DNA of 64,000 nucleotides, from positions 2,294,001 to 2,358,000 of the forward strand of contig NZ_CP006269.1 of assembly GCF_000737535.1 (NCBI RefSeq), given 5' to 3'. The DNA is from Synechococcus sp. KORDI-100 (GTDB lineage: Bacteria > Cyanobacteriota > Cyanobacteriia > PCC-6307 > Cyanobiaceae). The stretch's first letter is position 1. Every line of letters begins with the position of its first letter. Positions 57,142 through 61,152 of the stretch are shown piece after piece. The notes beneath the pieces are model-generated. The model worked only from the letters and a program-made list of their open reading frames with translations, searched no databases and was not told the origin of the DNA. A program made the position numbers and the translations under genes.

Positions 57142-57440
57142 GAAGGTCCACAAGCTGTAACAGTCCAGTGCTCACCAGGGTTCTCAACCACCCGGTATGC
57201 ACAGGGAATTCACAGCTTAAAGCTTGGTCTGCAGCCTTAGATACAAGTATTTGCTTCTAAACATGCTCTGCGTAGCCTTGCTTCAGATGGTCCTATGTGG
57301 CTCCGTAGCAGGTCGAATGTGTGTTTTAGGTACAAACTGTCAGGCAGGCATCTCTTGTCCAAGAGCCCTTAAAAGGTACCTCACGGAACACCACCTGATG
57401 GCTGATATTGCTATGGATTCGTAGGCGTCCTTCTTCACCA
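57142..57440. other. Promoter region between serA and the first RiPP gene
   Basis: About 300 bases. The serA side carries its promoter. The right side carries the 32-base repeated element at 57379-57410. A 66-codon frame at 57224-57424 runs through that element and is very Cys/Leu-rich, with no sign of being translated. Confidence 0.5.
57379..57410 (+). promoter_or_regulatory. Repeated 32-nt element before RiPP precursor 1
   Basis: Begins CCTCACGGAACACCACC and ends CTGATATTG. 29 of 32 bases match the element at 58483-58514, and its end lies 30 bases before the ATG here, 31 there. The flanking sequence does not match as well, so the element itself seems kept by selection. It may be promoter plus 5' UTR, or a regulator site. 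Confidence 0.6.
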
Positions 57441-57659
57441 ATGTCAGAAGACCAACTTAAGGCTTTCTGGGAAGCTATTCAGGCAGATTCAGCGCTTCAA
57501 CAAAAGCTCCAAGGCGTCACTGACCCTGGTGCCATTGTGGACATTGCTAAAGAAGCAGGCTTTACGATTTCTGCGGAGGATCTACAGGCAGCTCAAGTGG
57601 AGCTTTCGGACGAACAGCTCGATGCTGCGGCTGGCGGAGCTGAGTGCTGGACGATTTAA
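57441..57659 (+). CDS. ProcA/Nif11-type RiPP precursor 1
   Basis: 72 residues. The leader is 66 residues long: MSEDQLKAFWEAIQADSALQ, then IVDIAKEAGFTISAEDLQAA and ELSDEQLDAAAGG. It matches the Nif11-like leaders of prochlorosin (ProcA) precursors and ends in the Gly-Gly cut site. The remaining core is only AECWTI: one Cys and one Thr. In ProcA systems a LanM enzyme dehydrates Ser/Thr and joins it to Cys. Here the Thr follows the Cys by two residues. No LanM or export peptidase is in the window. The ATG at 57441 is chosen over an upstream GTG/ATG frame. Confidence 0.8.
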   Translation: MSEDQLKAFWEAIQADSALQQKLQGVTDPGAIVDIAKEAGFTISAEDLQAAQVELSDEQLDAAAGGAECWTI

Positions 57660-57832
57660 TTCGGCCTGGCTTGGATGTTGTTCAGCACAGCCGGGCAACT
57701 TAAGTTAATGTGCGCGATAGAGGTATGGGTTCGAATAAGAAATCAAAACCTTTCAATCACTGGTTTTTGTTCTTCACACACATCCAAAAGCTCATCAAAC
57801 AGCATCCATTACTTAGCACTATCAACACTTAT

Positions 57833-57864
57833 CCCCGTCAGCAATGGCAAGTTTTTTTATTGCC
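57833..57864 (+). repeat. T-rich imperfect repeat after RiPP gene 1
   Basis: CCCCGTCAGCAATGGCAAG then a T-run and ATTGCC. A close relative lies at 58440-58470 just before the second element, and a looser one at 58810-58841. The T-run suggests a terminator, but the stem is weak here. Confidence 0.5.
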
Positions 57865-57924
57865 TTGTCGTCCATGTGAGCAAGGTCAAAAGTGATCTTG
57901 TACTGGCTTGCCCCCTTCCAGATT

Positions 57925-58166
57925 ATGGATAAGATCACTTTGGAAAATCCTTCAGACGAGGAAGTCGATTCCCGGTAGGAACAGAGATGTGGGAGCAGTA
58001 CGACGAAAGCGGCAGCATCAGCACCAGTCATTGGTCATGGAATCGATGGGAAAAAGGTAAATTTGTCGAAGATGAAAGCTATGAATGGTGCGACGCTGAG
58101 AATGAGCGCAGGTTGGGGGTAAGAGTTCGCGAAACGAAATACTTCATCTTCTTCAGAGAGATTTGA
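57925..58166 (+). pseudogene. Possible frameshifted small gene
   Basis: MDKITLENPSDEEVDSR from the ATG at 57925 ends at a TAG. In the next frame, from 57987, MWEQYDESGSISTSHWSWNR then EKGKFVEDESYEWC and VRETKYFIFFREI runs 59 residues to 58166. Both parts look coding, and the second frame is open upstream to 57933, through FPVGTEMWEQ. A single-base frameshift near 57965 would join them into about 79 residues. The second part alone could also be a functional gene. No family recognised. Confidence 0.45.
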
Positions 58167-58439
58167 TACAAACAAAGAGAGCATAACTATTGGATTGAAA
58201 GGGCTGGTGGCTGGAGAATTAAAATACCTTTTTGCAAAACATACGAGCAGACAAGGGTTGACAACTGGATCGTGGTTGATTTGCCCTTTTTTATATTATA
58301 TTTATGGTTTGTCTTTTCTCGCACTCCTGTTCGCTGATGCCTCAGCAGAGCGGCTGAAAGTTATACAAAACCCTTGAAGGGAAAGACATGGCAGTTTGAT
58401 TGTGCTGATCGATCTCCCGACTAAACCTCACACCCACCA

Positions 58440-58470
58440 CCCCGTCAGTAATGGCGTGTTTTTTAATGCG
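58440..58470 (+). repeat. T-rich imperfect repeat before RiPP gene 2
   Basis: CCCCGTCAGTAATGGCGTG then a T-run and AATGCG; matches 57833-57864 in about 25 of 31 bases. It ends 12 bases before the shared element of the second precursor gene, suggesting that the duplicated unit carried the tail of one gene and the front of the next. Confidence 0.5.
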
Positions 58471-58482
58471 AGGTGATCTGTG

Positions 58483-58514
58483 CCTCACGGAACACCACCC
58501 GACGACTGATATTG
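58483..58514 (+). promoter_or_regulatory. Repeated 32-nt element before RiPP precursor 2
   Basis: The second copy, with three transitions against the one at 57379 (T/C, T/C, G/A). All differences lie in the central CYGAYGR part. The outer parts are identical. Confidence 0.6.
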
Positions 58515-58545
58515 ATTAACACAGCGCATACTCCCTCCGTTACCA

Positions 58546-58782
58546 ATGTCAGAAGAGCAACTCAACGCCTTTCTAGAGAAGATCAAAGCTGACACCGAAT
58601 TGCAGGAAAAGCTCAAGCCAGCAGCCTCCCCTGAAGCTGCTATTGAAATCGCTAAAGAAGCTGGGTTTGCAATTAGCGCAGAGGATATTCAATCTAAGGG
58701 AAAAGAATTGTCAGACGATGAGCTGGAAGGTGCACCTGGCGGTCAAAATAGAGGCTGCAGACTCTGGCTCACAGCTAACTAA
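58546..58782 (+). CDS. ProcA/Nif11-type RiPP precursor 2
   Basis: 78 residues. The leader is also 66 residues: MSEEQLNAFLEKIKADTELQ, IEIAKEAGFAISAEDIQSKG, ELSDDELEGAPGG. It is closer to the published ProcA leaders than precursor 1. The core after Gly-Gly is QNRGCRLWLTAN, one Cys and one Thr five residues apart, which would allow a single (methyl)lanthionine ring. Leader length is identical to gene 1 while the cores share nothing but Cys and Trp, the usual pattern of leader conservation and core diversification. A hairpin and T-run follow at 58811. Confidence 0.85.
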   Translation: MSEEQLNAFLEKIKADTELQEKLKPAASPEAAIEIAKEAGFAISAEDIQSKGKELSDDELEGAPGGQNRGCRLWLTAN

Positions 58783-58810
58783 AAGACAACCGTAGCTTAC
58801 GCCCTCAAAG

Positions 58811-58834
58811 CCCCTGCTTGACAGTGGTTTTTTA
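58811..58834 (+). terminator. Probable terminator of RiPP precursor 2
   Basis: CCCCTG, loop CTTGA, CAGTGG with one mismatch, then six T. It lies 28 bases after the stop. The stem is short, so efficiency may be modest. Confidence 0.55.
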
Positions 58835-58907
58835 TTGCTTCAACAAATCCCATTTAAACGGTAAATCATCGTCGTTTGTTATTGAGCCTTTTTGCTGGAA
58901 CCTACAA

Positions 58908-59234
58908 CTAAGGTTTAAGTGAACATTCAGGGAAGCTCTCTAGCATATTTTCTGCTCCTGCATTCCACATAGGGCTCGCATTATTCTCAGCCATTATCTT
59001 ATTCACTTTATCCCAAGATAAAAATAATTCCTCTTTTGTAAGTATACCTTTTTCTTCTGAATCACAAAGCAAATACGCCACCATCGACGAAGAAACATAA
59101 TCACCAGCACCTTCGCACAAATTAGTAGTTTCTTCTGTAGCTAGGCAAGCTTTATCTAGCTCCTCATATGTTTCAAACGCCTGAACTGGAGCTGTTGAAA
59201 GAAGCAGTGCGCCAAGTAGCGGAAAGAGTTTCAT
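58908..59234 (-). CDS. Small secreted Cys protein, tandem paralogue 1
   Basis: 108 residues. Signal peptide MKLFPLLGALLLSTAPVQA, then FETYEELDKACLATEETTNL as the mature start. LCDSEEKGILTKEELFLSWD resembles paralogues 2 and 3, and ECSLKP closes it. Four cysteines in the mature part suggest two disulfides. Exported and soluble. No known family. The 26 bases before the ATG are nearly identical to those before paralogues 2 and 3. Confidence 0.7.
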   Translation of the reverse strand: MKLFPLLGALLLSTAPVQAFETYEELDKACLATEETTNLCEGAGDYVSSSMVAYLLCDSEEKGILTKEELFLSWDKVNKIMAENNASPMWNAGAENMLESFPECSLKP

Positions 59235-59264
59235 AGGACTAGCCTGAAAGAACTGTTATGACAA

Positions 59265-59588
59265 CTAGGGTATAGGTTTAATTGGACAGTCTGGGAATTT
59301 TTCTAATGTCATCTCTACTGCTTCATCCGGCAGTGGTGCCCAACCATTCAACGCAACAACTTCATCCAAAGTCAAATCTAAATTCTCTTTTGTAATCCTG
59401 CCTTTTTCTTCTAAGCAACAAAGCATAGTCATCGTCATCATTCCAGCACCGAGTTGTGCAGCAACTACGCACAAATTACCGATTTCTTCTGAAGCATCAC
59501 AAGCTTTTTCCACTTCCTCATATGCTACAAAAGCCTGAACTGGAACTGCTGAGATAGGGAGTGAACCGATGAGTGGAAGAAGTTTCAT
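59265..59588 (-). CDS. Small secreted Cys protein, tandem paralogue 2
   Basis: 107 residues. Signal peptide MKLLPLIGSLPISAVPVQA, mature start FVAYEEVEKACDASEEIGNL, middle CCLEEKGRITKENLDLTLDE, end FPDCPIKPIP. The Met-rich stretch GAGMMTMTML is hydrophobic and may bury against the core. The 3' end and the spacer after it are nearly the same as those of paralogue 4, showing that the array grew by duplication. Confidence 0.7.
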   Translation of the reverse strand: MKLLPLIGSLPISAVPVQAFVAYEEVEKACDASEEIGNLCVVAAQLGAGMMTMTMLCCLEEKGRITKENLDLTLDEVVALNGWAPLPDEAVEMTLEKFPDCPIKPIP

Positions 59589-59645
59589 AGGATTAGCCTG
59601 AAAGAACTGATGACGGAATGCATGTGATTATTCAGTTGAGTCTAT

Positions 59646-59974
59646 CTATTCAAAGTCGCCGATATTGATTTGTTCATACGCACAACCTCTCTTTACATCT
59701 GCCCACATTCCCTCAAGCAAAGCATTAGCTATATACTCGTATTTTTGGCTAAACTGTCCCTTCGCTACAGACAACACTTCCTCAAATTCTTGTTGACTAA
59801 TTTTTTCTTGCTGCTTCAGCCCGCATGAGTAATGAAGATCCCTGAGACGTATCCAATTATATAAACTTCGAGCATCTTTCCTAACTCTTCATTATTTAAA
59901 TCCTCAAATGTTTCAATAGCCTGAACTGGCGCTGTTGAAAGGAGAAGTGCACCAATGAGTGGAAGGAGTTTCAT
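59646..59974 (-). pseudogene. Tandem paralogue 3, frameshifted
   Basis: Signal peptide MKLLPLIGALLLSTAPVQA, then IETFEDLNNEELGKMLEVYI and GYVSGIFI. The frame ends at a TGA at 59816. One base shift at about 59828 restores a frame reading YSCGLKQQEKISQQEFEEVL through WADVKRGCAYEQINIGDFE to a TAG at 59646. The restored sequence aligns with the EEKGxLTKEE region of its neighbours. A single missing base is the simplest explanation; a sequencing error cannot be excluded. Confidence 0.7.
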
Positions 59975-60004
59975 AGGATTAACCTGAAAGAACTGTGATG
60001 ACAA

Positions 60005-60352
60005 CTAGGGAATAGGTTTAATTGAACATTTCGGATGAGTTCTCAGCACGAAATTCACTCCTTCTTTGCGCAGATTATCGGGCTGAGGACTCAGTTCAAC
60101 CTCTTCCCAATATCCAGTTACTTCTTCTGCTGTAAGGAAGCCTCTCCACTCTAATTTACAAAGTGTGTTTGTGACAAACACAGAAGAATGCCACTCAGCA
60201 GATCTATCACATAGCTTTGTGTTTTCTCCTGAAGAAATGCAAGCGTTGACATATTCATCGTATGTTTCATAAGCCTGAACAGGTGCTACTGAAAGGAGAA
60301 GTGCACCTAGCAATGGAACAGTTATAAGTAATGACCTCATGAAAAATGACAT
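60005..60352 (-). CDS. Small secreted Cys protein, tandem paralogue 4
   Basis: 115 residues from MSFFMRSLLITVPLLGALLL, with the usual cut site SVAPVQA. Mature start YETYDEYVNACISSGENTKL, middle LCKLEWRGFLTAEEVTGYWE, end HPKCSIKPIP. Four cysteines keep the family positions. The upstream part differs from the others, so it may carry the array promoter. A longer frame to 60475 is unlikely to be translated. Confidence 0.7.
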   Translation of the reverse strand: MSFFMRSLLITVPLLGALLLSVAPVQAYETYDEYVNACISSGENTKLCDRSAEWHSSVFVTNTLCKLEWRGFLTAEEVTGYWEEVELSPQPDNLRKEGVNFVLRTHPKCSIKPIP

Positions 60353-60651
60353 GATTTTGTGAAGACAATTATCGTATGCACAGGGACCAAAACACCCCGT
60401 AGCCCCCAATGATTCTCCTGAGATTCTGTCAGGGATCTGGGTATAAATATTATTTTTCTCTGCTAACACCAACACTTAGCCAGGTGGGGGGTCCATTTCT
60501 GCCTGCAGCTGGCCAGCCAGACGGTCATGTGACAGTTCGATGAGAAAGGGCGCAGCACTGCCGCGCCGAACTCCAGGGAGCAGCCCTCACCCCCCCCCCC
60601 CCGCCAATTCAGAGGACAGAGTTCAGAATTCAAAGGACTGGATATGAGCGG
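60353..60651. other. Intergenic region with a 13-C run
   Basis: About 300 bases between the divergent paralogue 4 and the membrane-protein gene. It holds a run of 13 C at 60590-60602, 49 bases before the ATG at 60652. No gene seen. Confidence 0.6.
60590..60602. repeat. Poly-C tract, 13 bases
   Basis: Thirteen consecutive C in the region expected to hold the promoter of the gene at 60652. Mononucleotide G/C runs of this length are prone to slippage and to sequencing error. Confidence 0.8.
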
Positions 60652-61152
60652 ATGGCGATCTGCGTGGTGGTTCTTCCTGATGCCGAGGCGGCGGAGCGTT
60701 TGACGCAAGGGCTGAAGAACAGTGATCTACCCCTGATGCAGTGCCTCACCATTCCGCCCGATAGCGATGCAATCGACCAGGTGGAACTGCTGAGTCCCAA
60801 TCTGACCCGGCAGCGACGTCAGAAAGCGATGGCTCGCTGGCTGATGCCCTTCGGATTTCTCGCCGGACTCACCTTCACCAAAATCACCACGCTCACAACC
60901 TTCGACAGCTTCGGCCCATGGGGCCAGCCGGTGATCGGGGGACTCCTGGGCATGGGATCCGGCCTGATGGGCAGCTACGCCGCCGCGGCCAGCGTCAATT
61001 CCGAAAACGAAGACGGCGTTCGCATCCTTCGCAACCGTCGCGAGGAAGGTCGCTGGCTGCTCCTGATGGAGACACCAAGCGGCATCGATCTTCCCTGGCA
61101 AACCGTGCAGCGCAGTCGGCCATTGCAGGTGGTTCGTCTCAGCGAGCTGTGA
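60652..61152 (+). CDS. Conserved membrane protein, function unknown
   Basis: 166 residues. An N-terminal soluble part with alpha/beta pattern (MAICVVVLPDAEAAERLTQG) is followed by two hydrophobic segments in a Gly-rich hairpin (MPFGFLAGLTFTKI; PVIGGLLGMGSGLMGSYAAA) and a C-terminal soluble tail. The Gly-zipper hairpin recalls small-conductance or stress membrane proteins, but no family is certain. The stop overlaps the GTG of the S4 gene. Confidence 0.6.
   Translation: MAICVVVLPDAEAAERLTQGLKNSDLPLMQCLTIPPDSDAIDQVELLSPNLTRQRRQKAMARWLMPFGFLAGLTFTKITTLTTFDSFGPWGQPVIGGLLGMGSGLMGSYAAAASVNSENEDGVRILRNRREEGRWLLLMETPSGIDLPWQTVQRSRPLQVVRLSEL

Follow-up and report, generated by a model that had tools for sequence, protein, structure and literature searches.

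Two RiPP precursor genes lie close together in the window, the stretch of 64,000 nucleotides that was analyzed (positions 2294001-2358000 of one 2.789-Mb contig), and their leaders are of two different types. Precursor 1 has a leader that we call type A, whereas the leader of precursor 2 is of the ordinary ProcA type. Both genes share an upstream element, and in the genome LanM, YcaO and the C39 exporter are each encoded by a single gene. The function that we infer for the two genes is to serve different machineries: precursor 1 is probably azol(in)e-modified by YcaO and SagB and precursor 2 lanthionine-modified by LanM, both in trans, under a common upstream element and with export through the C39 transporter.

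A preliminary description of this DNA had recognized two Nif11/ProcA-type precursors with 66-residue leaders ending in Gly-Gly, and the open reading frames and profile scores agreed with it (Table 1). The Pfam Nif11 model gave 63.9 bits for precursor 1 and 64.1 bits for precursor 2 (cut-off 23.8), and NCBIfam TIGR03798 gave 80.5 and 84.1 bits over residues 1-66 (cut-off 32.3). Therefore, the two genes are not chance open reading frames. The proteins are 55% identical to each other, and in addition to the model score both showed the other features of the TIGR03798 family: a leader ending in Gly-Gly, a variable core and several paralogues. Start, Gly-Gly, stop and upstream element are all intact in both genes. 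Comparison of the leader of precursor 1 with that of its paralogue at 1791.9 kb of the contig yielded a dN of 0.061 and a dS of 0.52 (dN/dS ~0.12); thus, the leader is under purifying selection. This value and the intact upstream element weakened the earlier suggestion that precursor 1 might be a dead gene. Each core contains Cys and Thr, which are separated in precursor 1 by a single residue. This spacing had been regarded as too tight for a usual ring, an argument that is insecure, because the methyllanthionine of mersacidin joins adjacent residues. When the PDB was searched with 27 residues of precursor 1, there was no match, and the AlphaFold model of the protein (mean pLDDT 68, pTM 0.45) was too weak for an argument based on its surface.

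Table 1. Features of the precursor region, in window coordinates
Feature	Position	Strand	Description
Islet holding both precursors	57154..60651		about 3.5 kb long; flanked by serA and the ORF at 60652
Shared upstream element, precursor 1	57380..57410	+	31 bp
Precursor 1	57441..57659	+	72 aa; 66-aa type A Nif11 leader ending AAAGG; core AECWTI
Terminator-like hairpin and T-run	58443..58466	+	upstream of precursor 2; similar sequence at 57833-57848
Shared upstream element, precursor 2	58484..58514	+	28 of 31 bases identical to the precursor 1 element
Precursor 2	58546..58782	+	78 aa; 66-aa ordinary ProcA-type Nif11 leader ending GAPGG; core QNRGCRLWLTAN, 12 residues

The window had been described as free of modifying enzymes. 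A tblastn comparison of seven RiPP-related proteins of the same genome (YcaO, SagB, LanM, C39, second ABC, HlyD-like and methyltransferase-like) with it agrees with this description (best E = 0.022). A search of the whole genome for a LanM/ProcM enzyme, a C39 transporter and further leaders found all three. The sole LanM, with a single match each to PF05147 and PF13575 and 727 bits against TIGR03897, carries the CCG motif, the mark of the ProcM group according to the main text of PMC10783134. The sole YcaO is homologous to LynD and TruD across nearly its full length and ends in PxP, like LynD. It is adjoined by a SagB-type dehydrogenase related to CyaGox/ThcOx, and the two proteins pass the cut-offs of TIGR03604, TIGR03882 and TIGR03605; the TOMM leader-binding and SagD-type models are those passed by YcaO. 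A YcaO with a leader-binding part and a SagB-type dehydrogenase, the enzymes of a Nif11-type TOMM/LAP system, are therefore both present. The single C39 exporter gene is of the NHLP/Nif11 type; for it and for the second ABC and HlyD-like genes the NHLP/Nif11 exporter models were the best ones, with scores below the equivalog cut-offs. With one ProcM-like LanM, one C39 exporter and 21 Nif11 matches in the genome, the earlier proposal that maturation takes place in trans is credible. An MNIO gene (MbnB/TglH/ChrH, PF05114) with a DUF2063 neighbor was noticed some 3 kb away from the exporter genes (L026:1347-3076, C1:1384347-1386076); these genes could belong to another RiPP pathway.

LanM, YcaO and SagB are encoded in one cluster on the minus strand, which, with precursors named by their cores, reads methyltransferase-like gene, FHACACI, LanM, FCGRASCSRDTIYECM, CRGCQPWEQVGSM, GGFVSSVLSV, YcaO and SagB. 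The type A precursor GGFVSSVLSV ends upstream of YcaO with no gene between them. Thus a type A sibling is clustered with YcaO, and the precursors of the window lie about 0.56 Mb away from it. For the methyltransferase-like gene, Pfam gave no match and NCBIfam none better than E 0.025; on its far side is a resolvase gene.

Ten of the Nif11 matches in the genome are full-length ProcA-like leaders. Four are of type A, namely those of precursor 1, GGFVSSVLSV, FHACACI and a degenerate gene at 31.4 kb that lacks an ATG start and has Gly-Cys instead of Gly-Gly; the other six, including that of precursor 2, are ordinary. A profile built from the four own type A leaders gave 136-144 bits for this training set (141 for precursor 1), 118.6 bits for a leader from the UW140 MAG, 93 bits for the next best leader and 74 bits for precursor 2. 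In a sample of 400 genomes of the family, with at most 15 candidates scored per genome (e.g. 15 of 257 in G295), leaders reaching at least 113 bits were found in three genomes of three genera: the present one (G000, four), G141 (three) and G348 (one). The next score was 96.7 bits.

For closer comparison, 132 full leaders remained of 150 matches after 18 partial ones were dropped; they came from chosen, non-random stretches of 12 genomes. A quick tree built from 131 leaders placed all of type A on one side of a branch with an SH-aLRT value of 93. The lineages nearest to it, placed with weak support, were leaders of the YcaO genomes G295, G317, G029, G120 and G047, and precursor 2 grouped, again with weak support, with ordinary leaders of its own genome and of G141. 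The eight type A cores (ACSSLSW, GGFVSSVLSV, AECWTI, FHACACI, RSGVGCACT, GCYFVTMSMP, FDLSCLNVGGG and ICVIFTHR) are 6-11 residues long (median 8.5) versus a median of 21 for the 124 others (p 3e-6), only nine of which have cores of 11 residues or fewer. Cys together with Ser/Thr occurs in six of the eight type A cores and in 109 of the 124 others. Therefore, core make-up does not separate the types, and inability to form lanthionine was discarded as a mark of type A.

Type A was best separated by the columns Gln21, Val26, Gly25, Trp10, Ile13, Asp34, Gln14 and Ala18, five of which fall in helices 1 and 2 as predicted by a model of modest confidence. In predicted helix 1, precursor 1 has Trp10, Ala12 and Gln14; the residues at these positions in the majority of other leaders are Leu, Lys and Lys. 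Precursor 1 also has an L(X)4L motif (LSDEQL, within ELSDEQL). This motif was rejected as a mark of type A, being present in the last 16 leader residues of 4 of the 8 type A leaders and of 63 of the 124 others. A separate observation concerned the core CQVNSAKLSFPPYCEF, which recurs, with close variants, on diverged leaders of several genomes (L025:8791-9060, L043:9447-9710, L045:23-277 and L138:3346-3630); here a prochlorosin core is conserved and its leader changes, the opposite of what is usual. L045 and L046 are labeled as a Blastopirellula MAG, perhaps owing to contamination.

Close relatives of the YcaO, defined by at least 58% identity over nearly the full length, make up a set of eight genomes: the present one and seven others among the 400 (59-91% identity). 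G277 has a match of about 37% identity, and G295 has one in addition to its close relative. LanM was found in 26 of the 400 genomes, a count that takes in partial matches such as that in G204, and all eight genomes with the close YcaO are among them. Each of the three type A genomes has a close YcaO, and the distribution of type A follows YcaO and not LanM. The preliminary description had treated both genes as one ProcM-type set; this treatment has to be revised in view of the YcaO and SagB genes and of the separate mini-core clade, tracking YcaO, to which precursor 1 belongs.

The helix-1 motif FWxAxQ was searched as an exact DNA pattern for FW[DEKN]AxQ[AS]D, covering every candidate and counting exact matches only. 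The pattern was present in 9 of the 400 genomes, i.e. in seven of the eight close-YcaO genomes, in G253 and in G032, where the match showed no further leader similarity in any frame and was left out of the count. As part of a Nif11 leader, FWxAxQ thus occurred in 7/8 close-YcaO genomes versus 1/392 others (Fisher p 2e-13; 9e-5 within the 26 LanM genomes; 9e-12 without the own genome; 9e-13 with G032 counted; 9e-13 overall and 4e-4 within the LanM genomes with G277 counted as a YcaO genome), these p-values being post hoc because the carriers were already known when the motif was chosen, with only its absence elsewhere blind and the genomes non-independent. The sole FWxAxQ leader of G295, among at least 150 leaders, lies 2.5 kb from YcaO, and the sole one of G029, among 21, lies 2.9 kb from YcaO. 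In G348 (a Synechococcus UW140 MAG), a 12-kb contig holds the type A gene with part of SagB, a methyltransferase-like gene, an outer-membrane efflux gene and HlyD-C39-ABC exporter genes, and YcaO and an adjoining partial LanM are found on a contig that ends inside SagB. On this contig the type A precursor is separated from the methyltransferase-like gene by an IS200-like transposase gene (L036:10184-10966), an arrangement that may be relevant to the mobility of such clusters. The association has its exceptions. The type A genes of G141 are unlinked to YcaO, G317 has a close YcaO and no FWxAxQ motif, and G253 has two FWxAxQ leaders without a YcaO match. Because of G253, neither Trp10 nor FWxAxQ can be taken as a strict mark of YcaO.

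The two precursors sit together on one islet (Table 1). A serA match was present in 31 other genomes and the loci of 19 were examined; at all 19 of these same-genus loci the counterparts of serA and of the ORF at 60652 were about 100 bp apart, with no precursor between them. The minus strand of the islet (58908-60475) encodes three or more small proteins that are paralogous to each other (37-47% identity) and begin like signal peptides; Pfam gave no match for them. A shorter ORF (59816-60004) has the same start.

The upstream element had exactly two matches in the window and none in 100 shuffles. Its consensus had 12 copies in the genome, compared with none for the reversed pattern, and all 12 sit just upstream of Nif11 genes: eight at intact ProcA-like genes of both leader types, two at 1235 and 1237 kb, and two at the broken copies at 829.6 and 2022 kb. 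The pair at 1235/1237 kb (L028; C1:1234752-1235084 and 1237307-1237636) consists of near-identical Nif11 genes without ATG or Gly-Gly, both carrying the element. The remaining two full leaders, those of FHACACI and of the 31.4-kb gene, have the element with six and five mismatches, respectively. When up to six mismatches were allowed among the 132 leaders, the element was found for all ten of the own genome and for 3 of 28 in G141, which were the only hits among the 122 leaders from other genomes. Being restricted to these two genomes, it was dismissed as a general procA promoter.

Synonymous sites are saturated between the leader of precursor 2 and the type A leaders. Conservation of the upstream DNA despite this saturation suggests that both types belong to one regulon or to recombining cassettes. 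A sigma-70-type promoter was not found in the region of the precursors, nor was a known RNA family (Rfam, E up to 0.5). Terminator-like sites numbered two in the region versus 1.7 in shuffles, which by itself is not above chance. The sequence CCCCGTCAGYAATGGC followed by a T-run is present in two copies, one 3' of precursor 1 (57833-57848) and one 5' of precursor 2 (58440-58455), and similar DNA is also seen 5' of other ordinary precursors; the copies are perhaps cassette ends or terminators.

As to the mechanism, the leader-recognition domain of the LynD-like YcaO would bind the type A leader of precursor 1, and the enzyme would convert the Cys of AECWTI, and perhaps its Thr as well, into azolines, which the SagB-type dehydrogenase would oxidize to azoles. 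Precursor 2 would be the substrate of the ProcM-like LanM. Its core has the form Cys-(X)4-Thr, suited to one methyllanthionine, which would link Cys5 to Thr10 of the core. The C39 transporter would cut both precursors after Gly-Gly and export them. A precedent for the first step is MprC, a YcaO reported to read a structured NHLP leader through L(X)4L and helix 1 (Gln7, Ser10, Gln11, Ala14 and Trp17) (PMC12455567); according to the same report, a non-substrate leader works with MprC once these helix residues have been grafted on and L(X)4L has been changed. By analogy, YcaO may accept precursor 1 by reading its helix 1 and its L(X)4L motif.

Possible, and put forward more tentatively than the assignment of the two window genes, is a general form of this idea, in which the first helices of the leaders are an address by which a single family of scattered genes under common control is distributed to two unrelated machineries of the same cell. 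Leaders with the FWxAxQ face would go to the LynD-like YcaO, and their mini-cores would become azole oligopeptides; the other leaders would go to the ProcM-like LanM. If so, a few changes of helix residues would re-route a precursor.

Further observations run counter to the assignment of type A to YcaO. LynD and TruD act on Cys, and the type A core GGFVSSVLSV has none. Furthermore, the YcaO cluster of the own genome also contains LanM and ordinary precursors, and LanM is present in all eight close-YcaO genomes; linkage to YcaO thus does not exclude LanM. AECWTI, having Cys and Thr, could itself be a substrate of LanM. It is accordingly conceivable, if unlikely, that both genes encode ordinary prochlorosin precursors modified in trans by LanM and that YcaO and SagB serve other substrates. 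The single ProcM-like LanM with its CCG motif and the Cys and Thr of both cores would agree with this, as would the tolerance of ProcM-like enzymes, SyncM having up to 79 SyncA substrates (PMC9872173). However, a sibling of the leader clade of precursor 1 adjoins YcaO, and type A is confined to 3 genomes, all with a close YcaO, versus 26 with LanM. Moreover, the type A cores FHACACI and GGFVSSVLSV could not form lanthionine on their own.

We regard it as less likely still that type A precursors give rise to hybrids, one core being processed by YcaO/SagB and then by LanM or in the reverse order, with azoles as secondary modifications of prochlorosins as proposed in PMC10783134. The clustering of the LanM, YcaO and SagB genes in the own genome, the partial LanM that adjoins YcaO in G348 and the known dehydrazoles, hybrid products of a LanM-like enzyme and a YcaO (PMC10676384), are in line with such a sequence. 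Nevertheless, there is little space for two kinds of modification in a core of 6-11 residues, G141 has its LanM, YcaO and type A genes at widely separated sites, and the LanM-like enzyme of the dehydrazole pathway is described as lacking the zinc ligands (PMC10676384), whereas the own LanM has the CCG motif. Very improbable, finally, is that either or both of the window genes are remnants that decay or stay unmodified and yield no product. Core 1 is indeed very short, and broken copies exist elsewhere (the 31.4-kb gene and the copies with split frames at 829.6 kb and 2022 kb), but both window genes have kept all their parts, the leader of precursor 1 is under purifying selection, and every one of the eight type A genes, which come from three genera, has a short core. 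We therefore retain the assignment of precursor 1 to YcaO/SagB and of precursor 2 to LanM as the probable one.

The cluster itself is already known. Arias-Orozco et al. (2023) described ycaO and sagB as neighbors of syncA genes in KORDI-100, and they proposed azoles as secondary modifications (PMC10783134); the syncA/LAP cluster in Fig. 6A of that paper likewise shows the core FHACACI, LanM, ycaO and sagB together. In its main text, the leaders appear as one conserved logo, with no leader types, no link between leader and YcaO and no shared upstream element, and AECWTI does not occur there, although the supplements may list it. No other paper on the YcaO/LanM cluster of KORDI-100 was recognized among the matches listed in a literature search. 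What is new relative to the published cluster is the split of the leaders, its link to YcaO and the shared upstream element; the leader-based sorting is a new, testable proposal.

Several known systems are related. Prochlorosins and synechococsins (ProcA-ProcM, SyncA-SyncM) have the same Nif11 leader with Gly-Gly, variable cores, dispersed genes and one ProcM-like LanM, and the present genome, with its ProcM-like LanM and with Cys and Thr in the window cores, agrees with them; in contrast to these systems, type A forms a separate mini-core leader clade that tracks YcaO. Cyanobactins (LynD, TruD, PatE) are similar in their YcaO, homologous over nearly the full length, and in a dehydrogenase related to ThcOx/CyaGox. 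The own precursors differ from the PatE type, with its short leader and recognition sequences, by having Nif11 leaders and Gly-Gly. Nif11 precursors have been reported with TOMM machinery (Haft et al. 2010, PMC2887384; Cox et al. 2015, PMC4603692) and also with LanM (Haft et al. 2010, PMC2887384). As far as these reports describe them, Nif11/NHLP-type TOMMs share with the present case a Nif11 precursor beside a fused cyclodehydratase, a SagB-type dehydrogenase and NHLP-type exporter models; here, however, TOMM enzymes and LanM exist for one precursor family in one genome, and the precursors are scattered. MprC/MprE (PMC12455567) likewise has a YcaO with a recognition domain, for which helix 1 and L(X)4L were proposed as the reading surface. 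The leaders of MprE are NHLP and the own ones Nif11, and recognition, demonstrated for MprC, is carried over to the present YcaO by analogy.

How a cell with several RiPP machineries allots its precursors to the enzymes is an open general question. The genome analyzed here is a small natural test of it: it combines two types of leader with single genes for YcaO, LanM and the C39 exporter and with a shared upstream element, and its roughly ten precursors are short and easy to make. If the helix code holds, it would provide a rule by which the chemistry of orphan Nif11 precursors in marine picocyanobacteria could be assigned, and also a means of re-routing these precursors; some of the peptides now counted as prochlorosins would not be lanthipeptides.
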